Part shown: one piece after another, positions 32,574 through 61,272 of the stretch
How positions within the stretch are numbered: the first letter of the stretch is position 1
How the letters are laid out: each line of letters opens with the position of its first letter
Source: a virus
Virus record (IMG/VR): IMGVR_UViG_3300050821_016057
Location: 35,862-99,861 of that record
Strand: one strand, 5' to 3'
DNA length: 64,000 nucleotides
Translations under genes and position numbers: made by a program
The notes under the pieces: generated by a model
Seen by the model: only the letters and a program-made list of their open reading frames with translations
What the model was told of the DNA's origin: nothing
Databases searched by the model: none

Positions 32574-33452
32574 ATGGGATACGACGCGAAGATAGTTGCC
32601 GACTCGGTGGGGCCGAACGGGGCCCGGGTGACCACGTTCGAGCTGACGATGCCGCGCATCGTGCTGGCCGAGCACAACACGCACCGGATGTTCTCCCGCA
32701 ACGCGGCGAGCAGCCGGGCCATCCCGGTCGAGAAGCTGCTCGGGCGGGTCGAGGAGGACCCGATGCTGCCCGCGTTCTGGGGCAAGAACCAGTCGGGCAT
32801 GCAGGCCGCGGAGGAGCTTCAGGGTGACGAGCGGGAGGACGCGTGCCACCTTTGGCTCGTGGGGCGGGACCGGGCGCTGGACCTGGCTAGGACTCTGGCG
32901 AAGATCGGCCTGCACAAGCAGATCGCCAACCGGGTGGTGGAACCGTGGATGTTCACCACCGTGGTCTGCACCGCCACCGAGTGGGACAACGCGTGGGCGC
33001 TGCGCGTCGACCCGATGGCCCAGCCCGAGTACGAGCGGACGATGCGGATGGCGTACGACGCCTACCGGGCGAGTGAGCCCCGCGTTCTCGCGATGGGTGA
33101 GTGGCACCTCCCGTACGTGTCGTTCGACGACGAGATCGGGAAGTGGAACGAGCGAGAACTATGCATGATTAGCGCGGGTAGGTGCGCGGCCGTTACGTAC
33201 TTGAACCAGGGGCAGGCGGACGCGGTCGGGGACCTAGCCCGGGCGGCTAAGATTTTGAAGAGCGGGCACATGAGCCCGTTCGAACACCAGTGTCGAGCGA
33301 TGACGGAAAGTGAGTGGAACCGGTATGCACGTGAAGCGGCAGAGGCGTGGGTGGCCGACAGGGTGCCGGTCGGCAACATCTGGGGGTTCCACCAGTTCCG
33401 CAAGGAGCTGGCGAACGAGCACAACTACCAGCTGATCAAGGGGGCGCGGTGA
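32574..33452 (+). CDS. thyX: ThyX-like flavin-dependent thymidylate synthase
   Basis: 292 residues from ATG at 32574. The core motif reads HRMFSRNAASSRA (about 37-49) in place of the usual RHR.......S signature, keeping the Arg-Ser-Asn-Ser-Arg spacing with an altered start (THR for RHR). Later features GQADAVG, SPFEHQCRAM and NIWGFHQFRKEL fit the family fold. It makes dTMP from dUMP using FAD and folate. Flavin and dUMP residues have not been verified individually. Confidence 0.78.
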   Translation: MGYDAKIVADSVGPNGARVTTFELTMPRIVLAEHNTHRMFSRNAASSRAIPVEKLLGRVEEDPMLPAFWGKNQSGMQAAEELQGDEREDACHLWLVGRDRALDLARTLAKIGLHKQIANRVVEPWMFTTVVCTATEWDNAWALRVDPMAQPEYERTMRMAYDAYRASEPRVLAMGEWHLPYVSFDDEIGKWNERELCMISAGRCAAVTYLNQGQADAVGDLARAAKILKSGHMSPFEHQCRAMTESEWNRYAREAAEAWVADRVPVGNIWGFHQFRKELANEHNYQLIKGAR

Positions 33453-53826: not shown

Positions 53827-54422
53827 GGGCCGCGACCGCCACCGTGGGCGCGAGGGTGGTGGACTGCGTGACCCTGCTGACCAACGGGGTGGCGACCGCA
53901 ATGAGCGACTCCGGGGTGGACGGGGCGTTCCAATACTTGGGCAGCGTGACCCCGACCAGCCTGGCCGGGCTGATGGTGGCCGGGCTGGCGTTCATGCCGG
54001 TCACGTACGCGGACCGGTTCGACGGGGCGTCGACGGTGGCGGAGCTGCGCGTGCTGTCGATCCCGCGCGGGGTGACGGTCTGGCTGGACGTCGAGGGGGT
54101 GACGGGCGTCTCGTCGGTCAGCCTGATCCAGCAGATCAACGACTGGGCGCAGGCCGTGCTCGCCGCCGGCTGGGAGCCCGGGCTGTACGTGGGCGCCGGC
54201 TCGGTCCTGACGAGCGCGGAGCTGTACCAGCTGAAGGTGGTCCGGTACTGGCACGGCATGAGCCGCGTGGTGGACCGGAACGGGGAGGTGGCCGAGCCGA
54301 TGTGCGGGTGGTGCTGCCACCAGCTGTTCGACACCCAGCAGCTGGCCGGGGTGCCGGTCGACTACAACTTCGTCCAGAAGGACTGGAGCGGGCGCCTGCC
54401 CACCTGGGCGGTGGCCGGCTGA
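53823..54422 (+). CDS. DUF1906 glycoside-hydrolase-like protein
   Basis: 199 residues from ATG at 53823. The fold pattern YLGSVTP (start strand), VWLDVEGVTGVS, WEPGLYVG and C-terminal DYNFVQKD follows the DUF1906 family (Rv2525c-like), related to GH25 lysozymes. It may cut peptidoglycan or a host glycan during lysis. No signal peptide; export would rely on the holin. Confidence 0.65.
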   Translation: MRAATATVGARVVDCVTLLTNGVATAMSDSGVDGAFQYLGSVTPTSLAGLMVAGLAFMPVTYADRFDGASTVAELRVLSIPRGVTVWLDVEGVTGVSSVSLIQQINDWAQAVLAAGWEPGLYVGAGSVLTSAELYQLKVVRYWHGMSRVVDRNGEVAEPMCGWCCHQLFDTQQLAGVPVDYNFVQKDWSGRLPTWAVAG

Positions 54423-55475: not shown

Positions 55476-55813
55476 CCCAGCCGGCGGGCCGCATCGTCGA
55501 GATGGCGGTGAACATGAACCCGACCGGGTTCCTGAAGACCGTCCTGGACGAGACCAAGGAGCGGGTGTTGGCCCACGGGGCCGTCCACCCGGACCGGCCG
55601 CGCATCGGCACGGGCGCGATCGAGCTAAGGGTCGCGAAGGCGCCACCCCACATGGGGATGCCGCAGGGCTGGTACTGCTGGGGGGTGGTGGAGAACTACC
55701 CGTCCGGCCACCAGGAGATCCTGATCGGCGGGGGCAAGCCCACGGTCGTTGAGGCGTCGGTCGAGGGTTCGGCCGCGCTCGAGTCACTCCTGAACACGAG
55801 AGGTGGTCGCTAA
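55472..55813 (+). CDS. Hypothetical protein
   Basis: 113 residues from GTG at 55472. Beta-rich; GWYCWGVVENYPSGHQEIL. Probably structural by position. Unknown. Confidence 0.6.
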   Translation: MTQPAGRIVEMAVNMNPTGFLKTVLDETKERVLAHGAVHPDRPRIGTGAIELRVAKAPPHMGMPQGWYCWGVVENYPSGHQEILIGGGKPTVVEASVEGSAALESLLNTRGGR

Positions 55814-56238
55814 TGGCTTCGGGCAAAGCGCAGTACTGGTCGTGGCGGCTGCTCAACATGCTGAACGGGGCGACCGGCACGATCGCCACCCCGCTCTTCC
55901 TGGCGCTCTACACGGTCGCGCCCACGCTCACGACGGCGGGGACGGAGGTCACGAACGCGGGCTCGTACGCGTCCTTCTCGATCACCGGCAACACCACCAA
56001 CTGGCCCACCATCTCGTCGGGCTCGACGATGTCGAGCGGGACGATCTTCTTCGGGGTGACGGCGGCCACCGCCGACTGGAGCAGCGCGGCCAACATCGTG
56101 GCGGCGGCGCTCAAGGACAGCGGCACCAACGGGGCGGGCAACCAGTACTACTTCGGCGCGCTCACCGAGGCGAAGCCGGTGCTCAACGGCGACACGCCGA
56201 GCTTCGCGGTCGGAGCGGTCACGATCCAGGAGTTGTAA
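55813..56238 (+). CDS. Tail-associated protein
   Basis: 141 residues; ATG shares its A with the TAA of the previous gene. The pattern LFLALYTVAPT...GTEV...GSYASFSI is that of a common phage tail or fibre-tip protein family (LYLALFT..P...GTEV...Y.R). Beta-rich, Thr/Ser-rich. Confidence 0.68.
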   Translation: MASGKAQYWSWRLLNMLNGATGTIATPLFLALYTVAPTLTTAGTEVTNAGSYASFSITGNTTNWPTISSGSTMSSGTIFFGVTAATADWSSAANIVAAALKDSGTNGAGNQYYFGALTEAKPVLNGDTPSFAVGAVTIQEL

Positions 56239-56241
56239 GCC

Positions 56242-56595
56242 GTGTCCGGCCTCAAGTACGTCGACCGGGTGCAGGAGACGTCCTCGACGTCGGGCACCAG
56301 CGACTTCGTGCTGGCGGGCGCGGTCACCGGCTACCAGGCGTTCTCGAGCGCGTTCGTGACCGGCGAGCAGGCCTACTACTCGGCCAACGACGGCACCAAC
56401 TGGGAGGTGGGGCTGGGCACGTACACGCTCGGTACCACCACGCTGGCTCGAACGCAGGTCCTCTCCTCGAGCGCGGGAGGGACCACCAAGGCCAGCTTCT
56501 CCGGCACGGTCAAGATCTGGGTCGACATGCCGGCCGAGGTCATCGCGGATCGGGCCATGACGACCGCGTTCGCAAGTCACGTCGTCCCGCAGTGA
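56242..56595 (+). CDS. Tail-associated protein
   Basis: 117 residues from GTG at 56242. DRVQETSSTSGTSDFVLAGAVTGYQ and WEVGLGTYTLGTTTLARTQVL follow a well-known phage tail protein pattern. Predicted beta-sandwich; pairs with the preceding protein in other phages. Confidence 0.7.
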   Translation: MSGLKYVDRVQETSSTSGTSDFVLAGAVTGYQAFSSAFVTGEQAYYSANDGTNWEVGLGTYTLGTTTLARTQVLSSSAGGTTKASFSGTVKIWVDMPAEVIADRAMTTAFASHVVPQ

Positions 56596-56604
56596 GGTCA
56601 CCCC

Positions 56605-57054
56605 ATGAGTGGTAACGCGCAGCCGCAATTCACTCGGAACGGGAACGTCCAGAGCGTCGCCGTCACGGCGGCTAATACCTCCTCGGAGGGCGGCGGGACG
56701 ATCGGCACGAACATCTTCCAGGCGTTCTTGGCCGACGCGACCAACGGGTCGTTCGTCGACTTCCTCCGGTTCATGCCGACAGCCAGCGCGACGACGACGA
56801 CGACGGCCACGATCGGCCGTGTCTTCGTGTCCTCGCAGTCGGGCACTTCGGCGACGACATCGGCGAACACGTGGTGCATCGGGGAGGTCGTTCTCCCGGC
56901 AGTGTCGGCCGACAGTTCGAGTGCGGCGCTTTCCCCCATCGACTTCCCGCTCGGGTTTCGGCTGCCCGCCGGCTATACGATCCTGGTCACCAACTACGTG
57001 ATCCCGCAGACGAACACGCAGTGGCAGTGCACGGTGTTCGGCGGTGACTATTAG
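56605..57054 (+). CDS. Putative structural protein, lower GC
   Basis: 149 residues from ATG at 56605. Ser/Thr-rich beta protein. Less GC-rich than flanking genes, so mosaic origin is likely. Confidence 0.62.
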   Translation: MSGNAQPQFTRNGNVQSVAVTAANTSSEGGGTIGTNIFQAFLADATNGSFVDFLRFMPTASATTTTTATIGRVFVSSQSGTSATTSANTWCIGEVVLPAVSADSSSAALSPIDFPLGFRLPAGYTILVTNYVIPQTNTQWQCTVFGGDY

Positions 57055-57057
57055 GTT

Positions 57058-58041
57058 ATGCCCGATCCGCTGCTAGGCGCGCTTGGGTTCGCCCCCCGAC
57101 GAGCGAAGGAGCTCACTCTCCTTGGTTCGGTCGGGGCGGGCAACACCATCCAGGGATGGGCGGTCCCGAAGAACGCCTCCATGGTGTTCATGCTCTGCAT
57201 CGGCGGAGGCGGAGGTGGTGGTGGTGGTTTCTCCGCCGCCAGCGGGTCGGCCAAGGCCGGCGGCGCGGGGGGCGGTCCCGGGGCGACTTGCCGGATGATG
57301 ATCCCGGCGTACTTTCTCCCGAAGCAGCTCTACCTGTGGGCCGGGAACGGGGGGGTCGGTGGTTCGGGCAGCGGCGTGGCGGGTGTCGGCGGCACGCACT
57401 CGTTCATCCAGGACACGGGCGGGACGACCGCGGTCAACGGCACGGAGGATCTGATCATCTGCTCGGGGATCAACGTGGCCGGGGGCGGTGGGGCCGGCAC
57501 CGCTTCCTCGAGCACCGGTGGGGTTGCCGAGACCGTGTTCTCGACGGCGGCGTCGACCGTGTACGCGGGGGTCGGCATCTGGCTCGCGCACGCCGGGCAG
57601 TCTGCGGGTATCGCCGGCAACATCACGGGCACGCCCGGCGGCGTCACGTGGGGGGCGCAGGGGAGCAGCAACCCGAGCATCTGCACGGCCGGCGGCGCGG
57701 GGGGCGGGGCGACGGCCTCTAACGCGGCATTTTCTGGGAGCCAGGTATCGCTATTTCAGAACGGGTCGAGCGGCGGCTATACCGCGACGGGGGGCGCGGG
57801 GGTGGCGGGCGGCCCGGGTGGCAACGCGCAAGGCGGTGGGTTTAGGATGGGCGGCCGGACCGGCTTGGGAGGGTGGTGCTTCGGGGGCGGCTCCGGCGGT
57901 GGAGCGTGCGCGACGGCGGGCACGGGCGGTAGCGGGGGCAACGGCGGGCCGGGTTGCGGCGGAGGCGGCGGAGGAGCGGGCGTCACCGGGGGCGCGGGCG
58001 GTAACGGTGGGCCGGGCCTGATCTACATCGCGTGGTGGTAG
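57058..58041 (+). CDS. Gly-rich tail protein
   Basis: 327 residues from ATG at 57058. A short N-terminal domain, then long glycine tracts (GGGGGGGGG near 50 and GGNGGPGCGGGGGGAG near the end) separated by small hydrophobic strands. Such sequences form polyglycine helices in phage tail adhesins. Probably a host-recognition tip, with variable Gly tracts. Confidence 0.65.
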   Translation: MPDPLLGALGFAPRRAKELTLLGSVGAGNTIQGWAVPKNASMVFMLCIGGGGGGGGGFSAASGSAKAGGAGGGPGATCRMMIPAYFLPKQLYLWAGNGGVGGSGSGVAGVGGTHSFIQDTGGTTAVNGTEDLIICSGINVAGGGGAGTASSSTGGVAETVFSTAASTVYAGVGIWLAHAGQSAGIAGNITGTPGGVTWGAQGSSNPSICTAGGAGGGATASNAAFSGSQVSLFQNGSSGGYTATGGAGVAGGPGGNAQGGGFRMGGRTGLGGWCFGGGSGGGACATAGTGGSGGNGGPGCGGGGGGAGVTGGAGGNGGPGLIYIAWW

Positions 58042-58044
58042 TCG

Positions 58045-59787
58045 ATGCCCCTCGGGCTAGGACCCATCTCCAACTCCCCGATCGCCGGTCTCTCTGGAGG
58101 AGACCACGGCGGCGCGTTCTACGCAGTCATCGTGGGTGGCGCCACGCTCGTGGAGCTGATGGCGGTCCAGCGCGCGCTCGCCTCGGCGGTGGCCGGGCAA
58201 GCGACGGTCGGCGTGTCGATGAGGGTGAAGCGCGCCCTCGCGACCTCGGTGGCGGGGCAAGCCGCCGTTGCCGACACGATGAGCGTCAAGCGGGCGCTCG
58301 CTGACGCGGTCGTCGGGCAGGCCGCGGTGTCGGCGGCGTTCACGGCCAAGCGCCCGCTGGCCGCGGCGGTGGTCGGGCAGGCGACGGTGGCCGACACGAT
58401 GCGGGTCGCGCGGCCGCTGTCGGCGGCGGTGCACGGGGCGGCGGCGGTCACCGACGCGATTTTGGTCAAGCGTGGGATGGTCGACGCCGTCCTGGGGTCC
58501 TCGGTGGTGGTGGACGCGTTCAACTTGAAGCGCGCGCTGGCCGAAGCGGCGGTCGGCCAGGCGGGTGTGGTGGTCAACTTCACGGCCAAGCGGCCGCTGG
58601 CCGCGGCGGTCGCCGGGGGCGCGGTCGTCTCCGACGCGATGGCGGTCAAGCGGGTGATGTCGGTGCCGACCATCGCCGGGGCGGCCACCTTGTCCCCGGT
58701 GCCCATGCAGGTGAGGCGGGCGCTCCTCGAAGCGGTGTCGGGCGCGGCCACCCTGTCCCCGATGCCCGTGCGGGTCAGGCGCGCTCTCGCGCTGGCGGCG
58801 GTCGGGGACGCCGCGGTGTCGGCCGCCTGGACGGCCGACCGACTGCTGTCGGCGGTGGTGCTGGGTCGGGCGGCGGTCGCGGACCAGATGGCGGTGCGCC
58901 GGTCGGCGTCCTCCTCGGTCTCGGGGCAGGCCGCGGTGTCGGCGGCGCTCGGCCGGAAGGTCGCGCTCGTCCTGACGGTCGACTCGTTCGCCGTCTTCCT
59001 GGCCGCGATGGACGTGTCGGGCGGTGGGGGCGGGACGGTCGTGTTCGAGATGGACGCGTCGGGCGCGGCCGCGCTCGACCTGGTCGGGGAGGTCCGGCGC
59101 TCGATGGTCGCCCACCAGCAGGGCGCCGCGACGGCGACGATGGGCTGGGGGATGCGGCGGGCGCTGCGGGCGGCGCTGATCGGGGACGCGGTGGTGGGCG
59201 CGCAGCTGGGGGCCGGGCGGCCCCTGTCCGCCTCGGTGGCCGGCCACTCCACGCTGGTCGGGCTGCTGTCGAGGCGCCGGCCGGTCGCGCTCGTCACCGG
59301 GGGCTCGTCCTCGCTCGAGTTCGAGCTGGGGCGGTCCCGGCGGGTGGCCGCGGGGGTGTCGGGGGAGGCGGCCGTCCGGGCCGTCCTGGAGCTGTCCAGG
59401 GGGCTCGGCGCCGGCCTGGTGGGCGAGTCCTCGGTGGGGGCGGCGGTCGCCGTCGCCAAGGGGCTGCGGGCCGGGCTGGTGGGCGGGTCGACCCTGGAGG
59501 CGCTGCTCACCCGGTCGACGCCGTTCCGGGTCGCGATCCTGGCGGGCGGGTCGCTGGAGGCGTTGCTCACGTTCGCGATCCTCGGGGCCGCCGGGTCGGC
59601 GGTGGAGAGCCAGGCCGCGGCCGGTGCCGCGGTGAGCCCCGGCGGCCCCCAGGGCGCGTCCCTGGCCGCCGCCCAGGCCACCGGTGGGTCGTCGCTCGCG
59701 GGCGCGCCCGGGGGCAACGTCGTTGTGGTGGTGGGGCTGGTCGGCGGTATGCTGGTCGTGCCGGTGCCCACCGGGAGGACCCAATGA
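58045..59787 (+). CDS. Long repeat protein of the virion
   Basis: 580 residues from ATG at 58045. From about residue 30 to 500 the protein is a run of units of roughly 18-20 residues with consensus like VKRALAxAVVGQAAVxDxM, each with Ala/Val core and an Arg. No cysteine. This suits a solenoid or fibrous stalk. No signal peptide. Unit identity decays from N- to C-terminus. It is unlike any family I recognise. Confidence 0.7.
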   Translation: MPLGLGPISNSPIAGLSGGDHGGAFYAVIVGGATLVELMAVQRALASAVAGQATVGVSMRVKRALATSVAGQAAVADTMSVKRALADAVVGQAAVSAAFTAKRPLAAAVVGQATVADTMRVARPLSAAVHGAAAVTDAILVKRGMVDAVLGSSVVVDAFNLKRALAEAAVGQAGVVVNFTAKRPLAAAVAGGAVVSDAMAVKRVMSVPTIAGAATLSPVPMQVRRALLEAVSGAATLSPMPVRVRRALALAAVGDAAVSAAWTADRLLSAVVLGRAAVADQMAVRRSASSSVSGQAAVSAALGRKVALVLTVDSFAVFLAAMDVSGGGGGTVVFEMDASGAAALDLVGEVRRSMVAHQQGAATATMGWGMRRALRAALIGDAVVGAQLGAGRPLSASVAGHSTLVGLLSRRRPVALVTGGSSSLEFELGRSRRVAAGVSGEAAVRAVLELSRGLGAGLVGESSVGAAVAVAKGLRAGLVGGSTLEALLTRSTPFRVAILAGGSLEALLTFAILGAAGSAVESQAAAGAAVSPGGPQGASLAAAQATGGSSLAGAPGGNVVVVVGLVGGMLVVPVPTGRTQ

Positions 59788-60173
59788 CCCAGAGCGCGTG
59801 CCAGCCGACCGGCAAGTCGATCTTCAGGATGACGCGGGGCGACACCCGGACGTTCACGCTGACGGTGGTGCTGGCCGGGCAGCGGGTGAACCTGACGGGC
59901 TGCAAGCTCGCCTGGGTGGCCAACAGCTACCACCCGGACGACAACTCGCGGATCACCCACTCGACCGACGACGGCGGGGTGGTGATCTCTTCCGGGCAGA
60001 GCCCCGCGTCCCCGACGACCGGGCAGGCCACGCTGGCGCTCCACCCGCCCGACACCAACCAGTTCGCCAACGAGTGGATCCGGTTCAAGACCAACTGGGT
60101 GCTGACCGACCCGTCGGGCAACGTGACGACGATCGACCGCAACGAAGAGATCCACATGGCGCCGAACGTCTAG
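59784..60173 (+). CDS. Baseplate attachment-domain protein
   Basis: 129 residues from ATG at 59784 (ATGA). FRMTRGDTRTFTLTVVLAGQRVNLTGCKLAW matches the RGDT-type attachment module at the N-terminus of the 50590 protein and BppU-like proteins. Probably docks a fibre to the baseplate. Confidence 0.65.
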   Translation: MTQSACQPTGKSIFRMTRGDTRTFTLTVVLAGQRVNLTGCKLAWVANSYHPDDNSRITHSTDDGGVVISSGQSPASPTTGQATLALHPPDTNQFANEWIRFKTNWVLTDPSGNVTTIDRNEEIHMAPNV

Positions 60174-60223: not shown

Positions 60224-60679
60224 ATGCCTCACCTGATGATTCTCTACCTCGTCGGCTTCGTGCGGGCGTGGTGGCCCGGGATCCACGGCGCCCAGGAGCG
60301 CGACATGTGGTCGGTCGCGGCCGAGGTGGCCGCGCTCCCCACCACGGCGGGCAAGAAGCTCCGGCTGATGAACATCGCCGCCATGGAGAGCGGGTTCCGC
60401 CGGGACGCCAGGGGCAAGCTGGGGGAGTGCGGGGCCTGGCAGGTCATGCCCCCCTACCGGAGCTGCGGGGCCGACGAGGCGCTGCGCCGGATGGACGGGC
60501 AGGGGATGGTCGCGTACGTGGGGTGCAGGCGCGCCGAGGACGTGGTGGAGGTCCGGGGGGCGCGGGTCACGTGCGCCCAGATGGTCGCCAACCGGGTGGA
60601 CCGGGCCGACACCTACCGGATGGCGTTCGACCCGCCGGACGAGCCGGCCCCCGACCCCGGCCTGCTGGCCGGCCGGTGA
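60224..60679 (+). CDS. Lytic-transglycosylase-like lysozyme protein
   Basis: 151 residues from ATG at 60224. AAMESGFRRDARGKLGECGAWQVMPP (about 51-76) has the catalytic Glu in the ES.F pattern and the GxWQVMP segment of lysozyme-like transglycosylases. The beginning is hydrophobic (LMILYLVGFV), possibly a signal or anchor. Likely helps entry or lysis by cutting peptidoglycan. Confidence 0.75.
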   Translation: MPHLMILYLVGFVRAWWPGIHGAQERDMWSVAAEVAALPTTAGKKLRLMNIAAMESGFRRDARGKLGECGAWQVMPPYRSCGADEALRRMDGQGMVAYVGCRRAEDVVEVRGARVTCAQMVANRVDRADTYRMAFDPPDEPAPDPGLLAGR

Positions 60680-60732: not shown

Positions 60733-61272
60733 ATGGACCTGATCGTCGTTGAGGACCCGAAGGGCGAGTACTACGAGGGCTCGCTGGTGACCGAGCAGAG
60801 GGCCGCCCAGCTGAGGGCGCGCGGGGTGGCGATGCTGCCCGTGGACCCTCAGCTGTTCAAGCTGTCGGGGGCGGGCGGGTACTTCAAGCGCTCGTGGGGG
60901 GCGGGCTGGCCGCTCGACACCCCCTACCCGGTGATGGCCGCGAAGATGATCCTCTACTGCGACCAGACCCACCTGCAGCTCCACTGGCTGGCCCGGCTGG
61001 CCCCGCAGGAGGACGGCAAGAACCTGGGGGCCGCGCACGGGGCGCTGCGCCTGGCGGCCGACACCGGCCAGCGGGCCAACAACATGAAGCTCACCCCGGT
61101 CGGGATGCCGGTCGACGTGCGCCTGCTGGGCGAGCCGGACGAGCGGGGCGGGTGGACGGTGGGCGGGCTGTCCCGGATCGCCACCCCGGGGGACGGGCAC
61201 TACGGGCTGGCCCTCTACGGGAACGCGCCCGGCCTCACGCTGTTGTGGGCAGCGGTCACCAACACCAAGTAG
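60733..61272 (+). CDS. Hypothetical structural-region protein
   Basis: 179 residues from ATG at 60733. Mixed alpha/beta, two Gly-rich loops; soluble. Family not recognised. Place among tail genes suggests a virion role. Confidence 0.62.
   Translation: MDLIVVEDPKGEYYEGSLVTEQRAAQLRARGVAMLPVDPQLFKLSGAGGYFKRSWGAGWPLDTPYPVMAAKMILYCDQTHLQLHWLARLAPQEDGKNLGAAHGALRLAADTGQRANNMKLTPVGMPVDVRLLGEPDERGGWTVGGLSRIATPGDGHYGLALYGNAPGLTLLWAAVTNTK

Follow-up and report, generated by a model that had tools for sequence, protein, structure and literature searches.

The window analyzed here is a stretch of 64,000 nucleotides that corresponds to bases 35862-99861 of a 99,861-base IMG/VR virus contig. Genes on the contig encode a portal protein (phrog_64), a major head protein (phrog_1357), baseplate hub and wedge proteins (phrog_46, phrog_6), a family B DNA polymerase, and a DnaB-like helicase, together with two proteins assigned by gene order without a confirming family match: a large one at the place of the sheath and a 145-residue one in the tube position. 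Because of the latter two proteins and the baseplate genes, the gene content suggests that the phage is contractile-tailed. Near the right contig end, in a fiber/lysin cassette, lies an intact open reading frame with its ATG at 58045 and its stop at 59787 on the plus strand; it encodes a 580-residue repeat protein, as an earlier note on this DNA had claimed, which we call P0001. The frame looks coding by its codon-position G+C content (0.77/0.59/0.97, scored from an internal start), and the long antisense ORFs at this gene are mirror ORFs of high-G+C coding DNA that do not speak for further genes. The features of the cassette and of the repeat gene are as follows.

53859-54422: glycoside-hydrolase-like lysin, a member of the P0001 cassette
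55813-56238, plus strand: Gp80-like fiber subunit, 141 residues (Pfam PF23140, 'Podophage GP4 fiber I protein gp80', E 4.9e-16, above the curated cut-off)
56242-56595, plus strand: 117-residue protein between the Gp80 and repeat genes, with no convincing family match in Pfam or PHROGs; judged by eye, a probable small structural or adaptor domain
56605-57054, plus strand: 149-residue protein with a weak PHROG tail match (E 0.043)
57058-58041, plus strand: 327-residue Gly-rich protein whose gene ends 3 nt before the repeat gene (Gly_rich_2 match, sub-threshold)
58045-59787, plus strand: repeat protein P0001, 580 residues, proposed rope or backbone of a Gp80-type fiber
58045-58134, plus strand: N-terminal non-repeat segment of P0001, residues 1-30, with the motif LGLGPISNSPIAG
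58135-58983, plus strand: first repeat array, residues 31-313, 14 units of 20 residues (two steps of 21), consensus GQA(A/T)VxDxMxVKR(A/P)LAAAVx
58984-59061, plus strand: degenerate Gly-rich break, residues 314-339 (pLDDT below 50)
59062-59604, plus strand: second repeat array, residues 340-520, nine more divergent units
59605-59787, plus strand: C-terminal low-complexity tail, residues 521-580, and the stop codon (predicted without order, pLDDT 26-36)
59784-60173, plus strand: 129-residue protein overlapping the stop of the P0001 gene (weak PHROG 1084 match)
60224-60679: weak SLT domain, a member of the P0001 cassette

Self-comparison of P0001 gave z scores of 15.4 at a lag of 20 residues, 11.4 at a lag of 40, and 9.8 at a lag of 60, and the largest z among 300 shuffled sequences was 3.8. 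The signal at lag 10 was also raised but weaker (z 4.5), in agreement with a pair of short strands in each unit. The DNA shows a 60-nt register that matches the protein period. We counted ~24 units, comprising 23 recognizable ones (starting at residues 31, 51, 71 ... 294 and 340 ... 500) and the one degenerate Gly-rich stretch, so that the figure of about 25 in the earlier note was a fair estimate; its unit length of 18-20 residues was too loose, as the units are exactly 20 residues long with two steps of 21. The unit consensus is G-Q-A-(A/T)-V-x-(A/D)-x-(M/L)-x-V-K-R-(A/P)-L-A-A-A-V-x, and Arg occupies position 13 in 19 of the 23 units. The odd positions (G, A/S, V/L, A/D, M/L/F, V, R, L, A, V) form an unbroken alternating β pattern. 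By eye only, the N-terminal LGLGPISNSPIAG resembles the N termini of the repeat proteins of locus L078 (LGIASTPIASGPISG) and of Burkholderia phage BcepIL02 (gp56, LYALNETPINGW).

P0001 had no usable match in Pfam, PHROGs, or the PDB sequences. A tblastn search of INPHARED phages found none either, the repeats probably being masked by the low-complexity filter, and no related locus was found in searches with P0001 or with the gene 3' of it; low complexity and divergence apparently put the protein beyond the reach of ordinary searches. Relatives were recovered with DNA patterns. A pattern of three G-x-[AS]-x-[VI] cores spaced 60 nt apart, which makes no reference to Gp80, matched at least 120 IMG/VR contigs, and among the matches listed 74 of 80 candidate ORFs showed a period of 20 with z > 6. 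A second pattern that additionally required the Arg codon gave the closest relatives, such as the protein of locus L171, the units of which are near-identical to those of P0001 (GQASVSSVFARQRALEAAVT). A stricter two-unit pattern had no match in IMG/VR, and one scan of genome contigs with a tighter pattern returned two chance matches only, in 18-19-residue frames. Among the matches listed, the relatives in IMG/VR amount to 112 proteins in 65 clusters.

Family membership was assessed with a profile built from ten relatives with P0001 left out. This profile gave P0001 a score of 72.8 bits (E 5e-22 with 602 sequences tested), as compared to -59 bits for reversed P0001, -7.1 for the best of 300 shuffles, and -4.8 for the best of 300 column-permuted sequences. 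Since the column-permuted control keeps both the composition and the period of 20, what the profile recognizes is the unit itself. We placed no trust in BLAST scores between repeat proteins, as even reversed P0001 gave a match (E 3.7e-9). P0001 thus belongs to a large, very common, and unnamed phage repeat family, and the earlier note's statement that the unit matches no known family holds for Pfam, PHROGs, and the PDB but not for the 112 IMG/VR relatives. These proteins (from loci L171, L172, L178, L111, L085, L168, and ~105 more) share with P0001 the 20-residue register and the G-x-A-x-V core; they differ in that their arrays range from ~6 to >30 units, some carry other N-terminal domains, and many are Ser/Thr-rich rather than Ala/Val-rich. 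A broad profile from mixed Ser/Thr-rich relatives left P0001 unrecognized (-51 bits), which means that the sub-groups differ strongly in sequence. In one relative (L101:14139-14852, minus strand) the 20-residue repeats and a Gly-rich stretch are fused in a single ORF, whereas in the window they are the separate adjoining genes 57058-58041 and 58045-59787. The PDB matches of another locus, L007, to designed propellers were taken as composition artefacts.

The window contains exactly one Gp80-like ORF, which lies 1.8 kb upstream of the P0001 gene on the same strand and in the same cassette, with three genes between them. Gp80-like genes recur beside the repeat family. They were present in 55 of 74 loci of the first set and in 31 of 47 of the second (among the matches listed), and most of those in the first set lay directly upstream or 515 nt upstream of the repeat gene on the same strand. 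When counted by repeat-protein cluster, again among the matches listed, a Gp80-like gene was found upstream on the same strand in 47 of 65, and within 600 nt in 36; nine of the 18 clusters that lack one have <1 kb of upstream sequence. As a control, kin-phage loci that had been selected through other genes contained no Gp80-like ORF, the sole match (L049) having been fetched by Gp80. Short proteins (~90-130 residues) come after the repeat gene in many relatives, and the counterpart in the window is encoded at 59784-60173. The Gp80 family itself is much wider than the podophage of its Pfam name: Gp80-like proteins turn up in 41 records of Mycobacterium phages and in many further isolates, mostly under the annotation 'hypothetical' or 'head protein'.

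P0001 had no match in 21 kin phages that have the major head protein in common with this phage and hence is not a core gene of the lineage. Kin phages that share the head genes are without matches to both P0001 and Gp80, which means that the lineage can do without the appendage. The neighboring genes at 60733, 61283, and 61794 and the portal gene are conserved in the kin phages whose fiber region was fetched; with P0001 relatives missing there, the repeat gene and Gp80 behave as an appendage cassette that can be exchanged. Kin phages encode, close to where the window has its fiber/lysin cassette, what look by eye like papain-like cysteine peptidases (SSCVGWALAQAI ... GGHELHLVGF; L037:890-1654, L040:12589-13431, L042:11070-11855, and L039:11669-12178). 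Related proteins that appear ThyX-like by eye are encoded at 32574-33452 of the window, in its replication half, and at L045:10478-11377, inside the fiber region of a kin phage. The portal ORF of kin phage G013 (L042:2343-4484, minus strand) opens with a stretch that ends in YDLSVPGCESFVAGGAYVHNC, immediately ahead of the conserved portal sequence, and that resembles the C-terminal portion of a portal-protein intein.

The same gene order occurs in isolate phages, a repeat gene following Gp80 in BcepIL02 (gp55-gp56), JC1 (gp53-gp54), POI1126 (gp15-gp16), and Itty13 (gp16-gp15). BcepIL02 gp56, a 285-residue protein encoded directly 3' of gp55 (Gp80), has a period of 20 (z 8.3) and no match among PDB sequences, and gp16 of the Ochrobactrum phage POI1126 shows the same period (z 6.8), most of its units carrying an Arg-rich pair; the period is weaker in JC1 gp54 (z 4.3) and Itty13 gp15 (z 2.6). 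Gp80 is a particle protein: its homologue is noted in the particle proteome in the record of Sinorhizobium phage phiM5, and mass spectrometry of JC1 virions found gp53 (Gp80), whereas the repeat protein gp54 was not among the detected proteins (PMC9144972). For the repeat protein in virions there is one annotation in favor, BcepIL02 gp56, which like gp55 is annotated virion-associated, and two non-detections, namely JC1 gp54 and phiM5_18, the protein following the phiM5 Gp80 homologue, which carries no proteome note. A low abundance of the rope, at roughly one for many copies of Gp80, could account for these non-detections. The gene after the repeat gene in BcepIL02 and POI1126 encodes a short virion-associated protein.

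Structure prediction yielded models of low confidence. The AlphaFold2 monomer of P0001 contained strands only in the arrays (pLDDT ~50-68), with no order at the N terminus, in the central break, or in the last 70 residues. An AlphaFold model of a relative, made with 24 aligned sequences, reached pLDDT values of 57-73 in mid-array, and two strands per 20-residue unit were predicted in this protein as well as in the second half of P0001. A Foldseek comparison of the low-confidence models with BFVD mostly returned unnamed phage proteins, and PDB structures resembling the model of the relative were mostly β-solenoids (tapirin, GlmU, SufBD, SRRP, and hemolysin A), with none significant (best E 0.17). 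The model of P0001 is all-β and solenoid-like at this low confidence, and it is compatible with a solenoid that stands by itself as well as with an extended rope that would fold only when bound to Gp80.

These features could describe a free-standing shaft in which the 24 units coil as one β-helix with 20 residues per turn, giving a rigid rod without Gp80. Twenty residues is a common coil length for solenoids, and the two predicted strands per unit and the β-helical look-alikes are consistent with such a rod; the low model confidence and the absence of a significant PDB match speak against it, and it leaves the tight linkage to Gp80 unexplained. We regard it as possible but rather unlikely. From the solenoid or fiber reading proposed in the earlier note we retain an all-β, repetitive virion appendage as the best reading, whereas none of the solenoid look-alikes is significant. 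A trimeric fiber shaft, whether a triple β-spiral or an interleaved β-prism, appears quite improbable: the alternating hydrophobic residues fit β-shafts in general, but the period is 20 rather than the 15 of the triple β-spiral, and no fiber family in Pfam or PHROGs was matched. In the adenovirus-type spiral, the 15-residue repeat has a conserved Gly/Pro turn, and lag 15 was outside the 15 best lags of P0001; the trimeric stalk suggested at the outset is unsupported. Another initial suggestion, a tail tape, was rejected and must be considered extremely improbable. P0001 is long and repetitive, as a tape measure protein is, but such a protein is expected to be mostly α-helical and encoded after the tail tube gene, whereas P0001 is predicted to be all-β and sits in the fiber/lysin cassette. 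A different gene (L002:18114 onward into L003, ~75 kb away on the contig) is the tape-measure candidate; it comes immediately after those in the sheath and tube positions.

The recurrent position of the repeat family next to a known phage fiber gene leads us to favor a different role, in which P0001 is most likely the backbone of such fibers. GP4 fiber I was reportedly described by Zheng and coworkers in 2023 as five dimers of gp80 that are joined by a long 'rope' protein. A Gp80 relative matches chain a of PDB entry 8jou (E 3.5e-8), which holds ten copies of this chain and is presumably the structure from that GP4 work. The recurrent neighbor of gp80 with an extended repeat would be the obvious candidate for the rope, and we infer that P0001 is probably a virion protein that forms the elongated repeat backbone of a side fiber together with the Gp80-like product of 55813-56238. 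Every unit of 20 residues would offer an alternating hydrophobic β segment (A3, V5, M/L9, V11, R13, L15, A17, V19) along with a conserved basic pair, and Gp80-like subunits may be strung along the array by binding to it. The spacing of the genes counts against this assignment, since the Gp80 and repeat genes adjoin in many relatives but are three genes apart in the window, as do the lack of matches to both genes in kin phages and the two non-detections of the repeat protein in virions.

Where on the particle such a fiber would sit is a separate question, and the rope model also allows a capsid- or neck-decorating fiber associated with the head rather than the tail. The neighbors of the repeat gene in L111 and L178 resemble, by eye, genes for the head and the head-tail connector, the RefSeq name for the Gp80 family is 'head protein', the BcepIL02 pair comes shortly after the major capsid gene, and in GP4, fiber I sits on the head, at the edges of its tail vertex. 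Against this, the pair in the window belongs to a fiber/lysin cassette at the contig end, and elsewhere the Gp80 gene comes after tail tube or baseplate genes (phiM5, DB2, PVJ1). We regard a head or neck location as rather unlikely.

If Gp80-like subunits are strung along the units, the unit number would set the fiber length. We tentatively extend the rope model to the prediction, attractive but more speculative and rather unlikely as a general rule, that 20-residue arrays are widespread molecular rulers with one Gp80-type subunit per unit across podo-, sipho-, and myophages. Repeat number would then set both the subunit number and the reach of the fiber, with ~24 for the phage of the window, and fiber length could evolve by a simple model of repeat gain and loss. 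Annotators of phages have mostly labeled such repeat proteins 'hypothetical' or of 'unknown function'; a link to the Gp80 fiber subunit gives the whole repeat family a testable role at once, and a recurrent two-gene fiber module becomes nameable in many phage genomes.

Among known systems, the six-fold β-flower of Bflower_3 (PF21786) resembles P0001 in having β-hairpin repeats, but β-flowers are closed barrels of 8-12 strands and not long arrays (PMC10584680). Membership in this family was rejected, as P0001 had no match and the relative L080 was sub-threshold (E 4.9e-5, 23.7 bits versus a cut-off of 34). The proteins BcepIL02 gp56, JC1 gp54, and POI1126 gp16, each encoded directly downstream of a Gp80-like gene, are like P0001 in their period of 20 (22 in parts) and in the conserved basic pair found in many units. 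They are unlike it in their length of 280-291 residues and in having some units longer than 20, and they have diverged from P0001 beyond the reach of profile detection. With fiber I of the Ralstonia podophage GP4 (gp80 and its 'rope'; PDB 8jou; PF23140), the window has in common a Gp80-like gene; unlike GP4, its phage is contractile-tailed by gene content and has three genes between Gp80 and the repeat gene. P0001 has ~24 units as compared to ~11, counted by eye, in the Burkholderia equivalents, and the latter number is close to the ten gp80 chains of their GP4 relative, an agreement that is at most suggestive.
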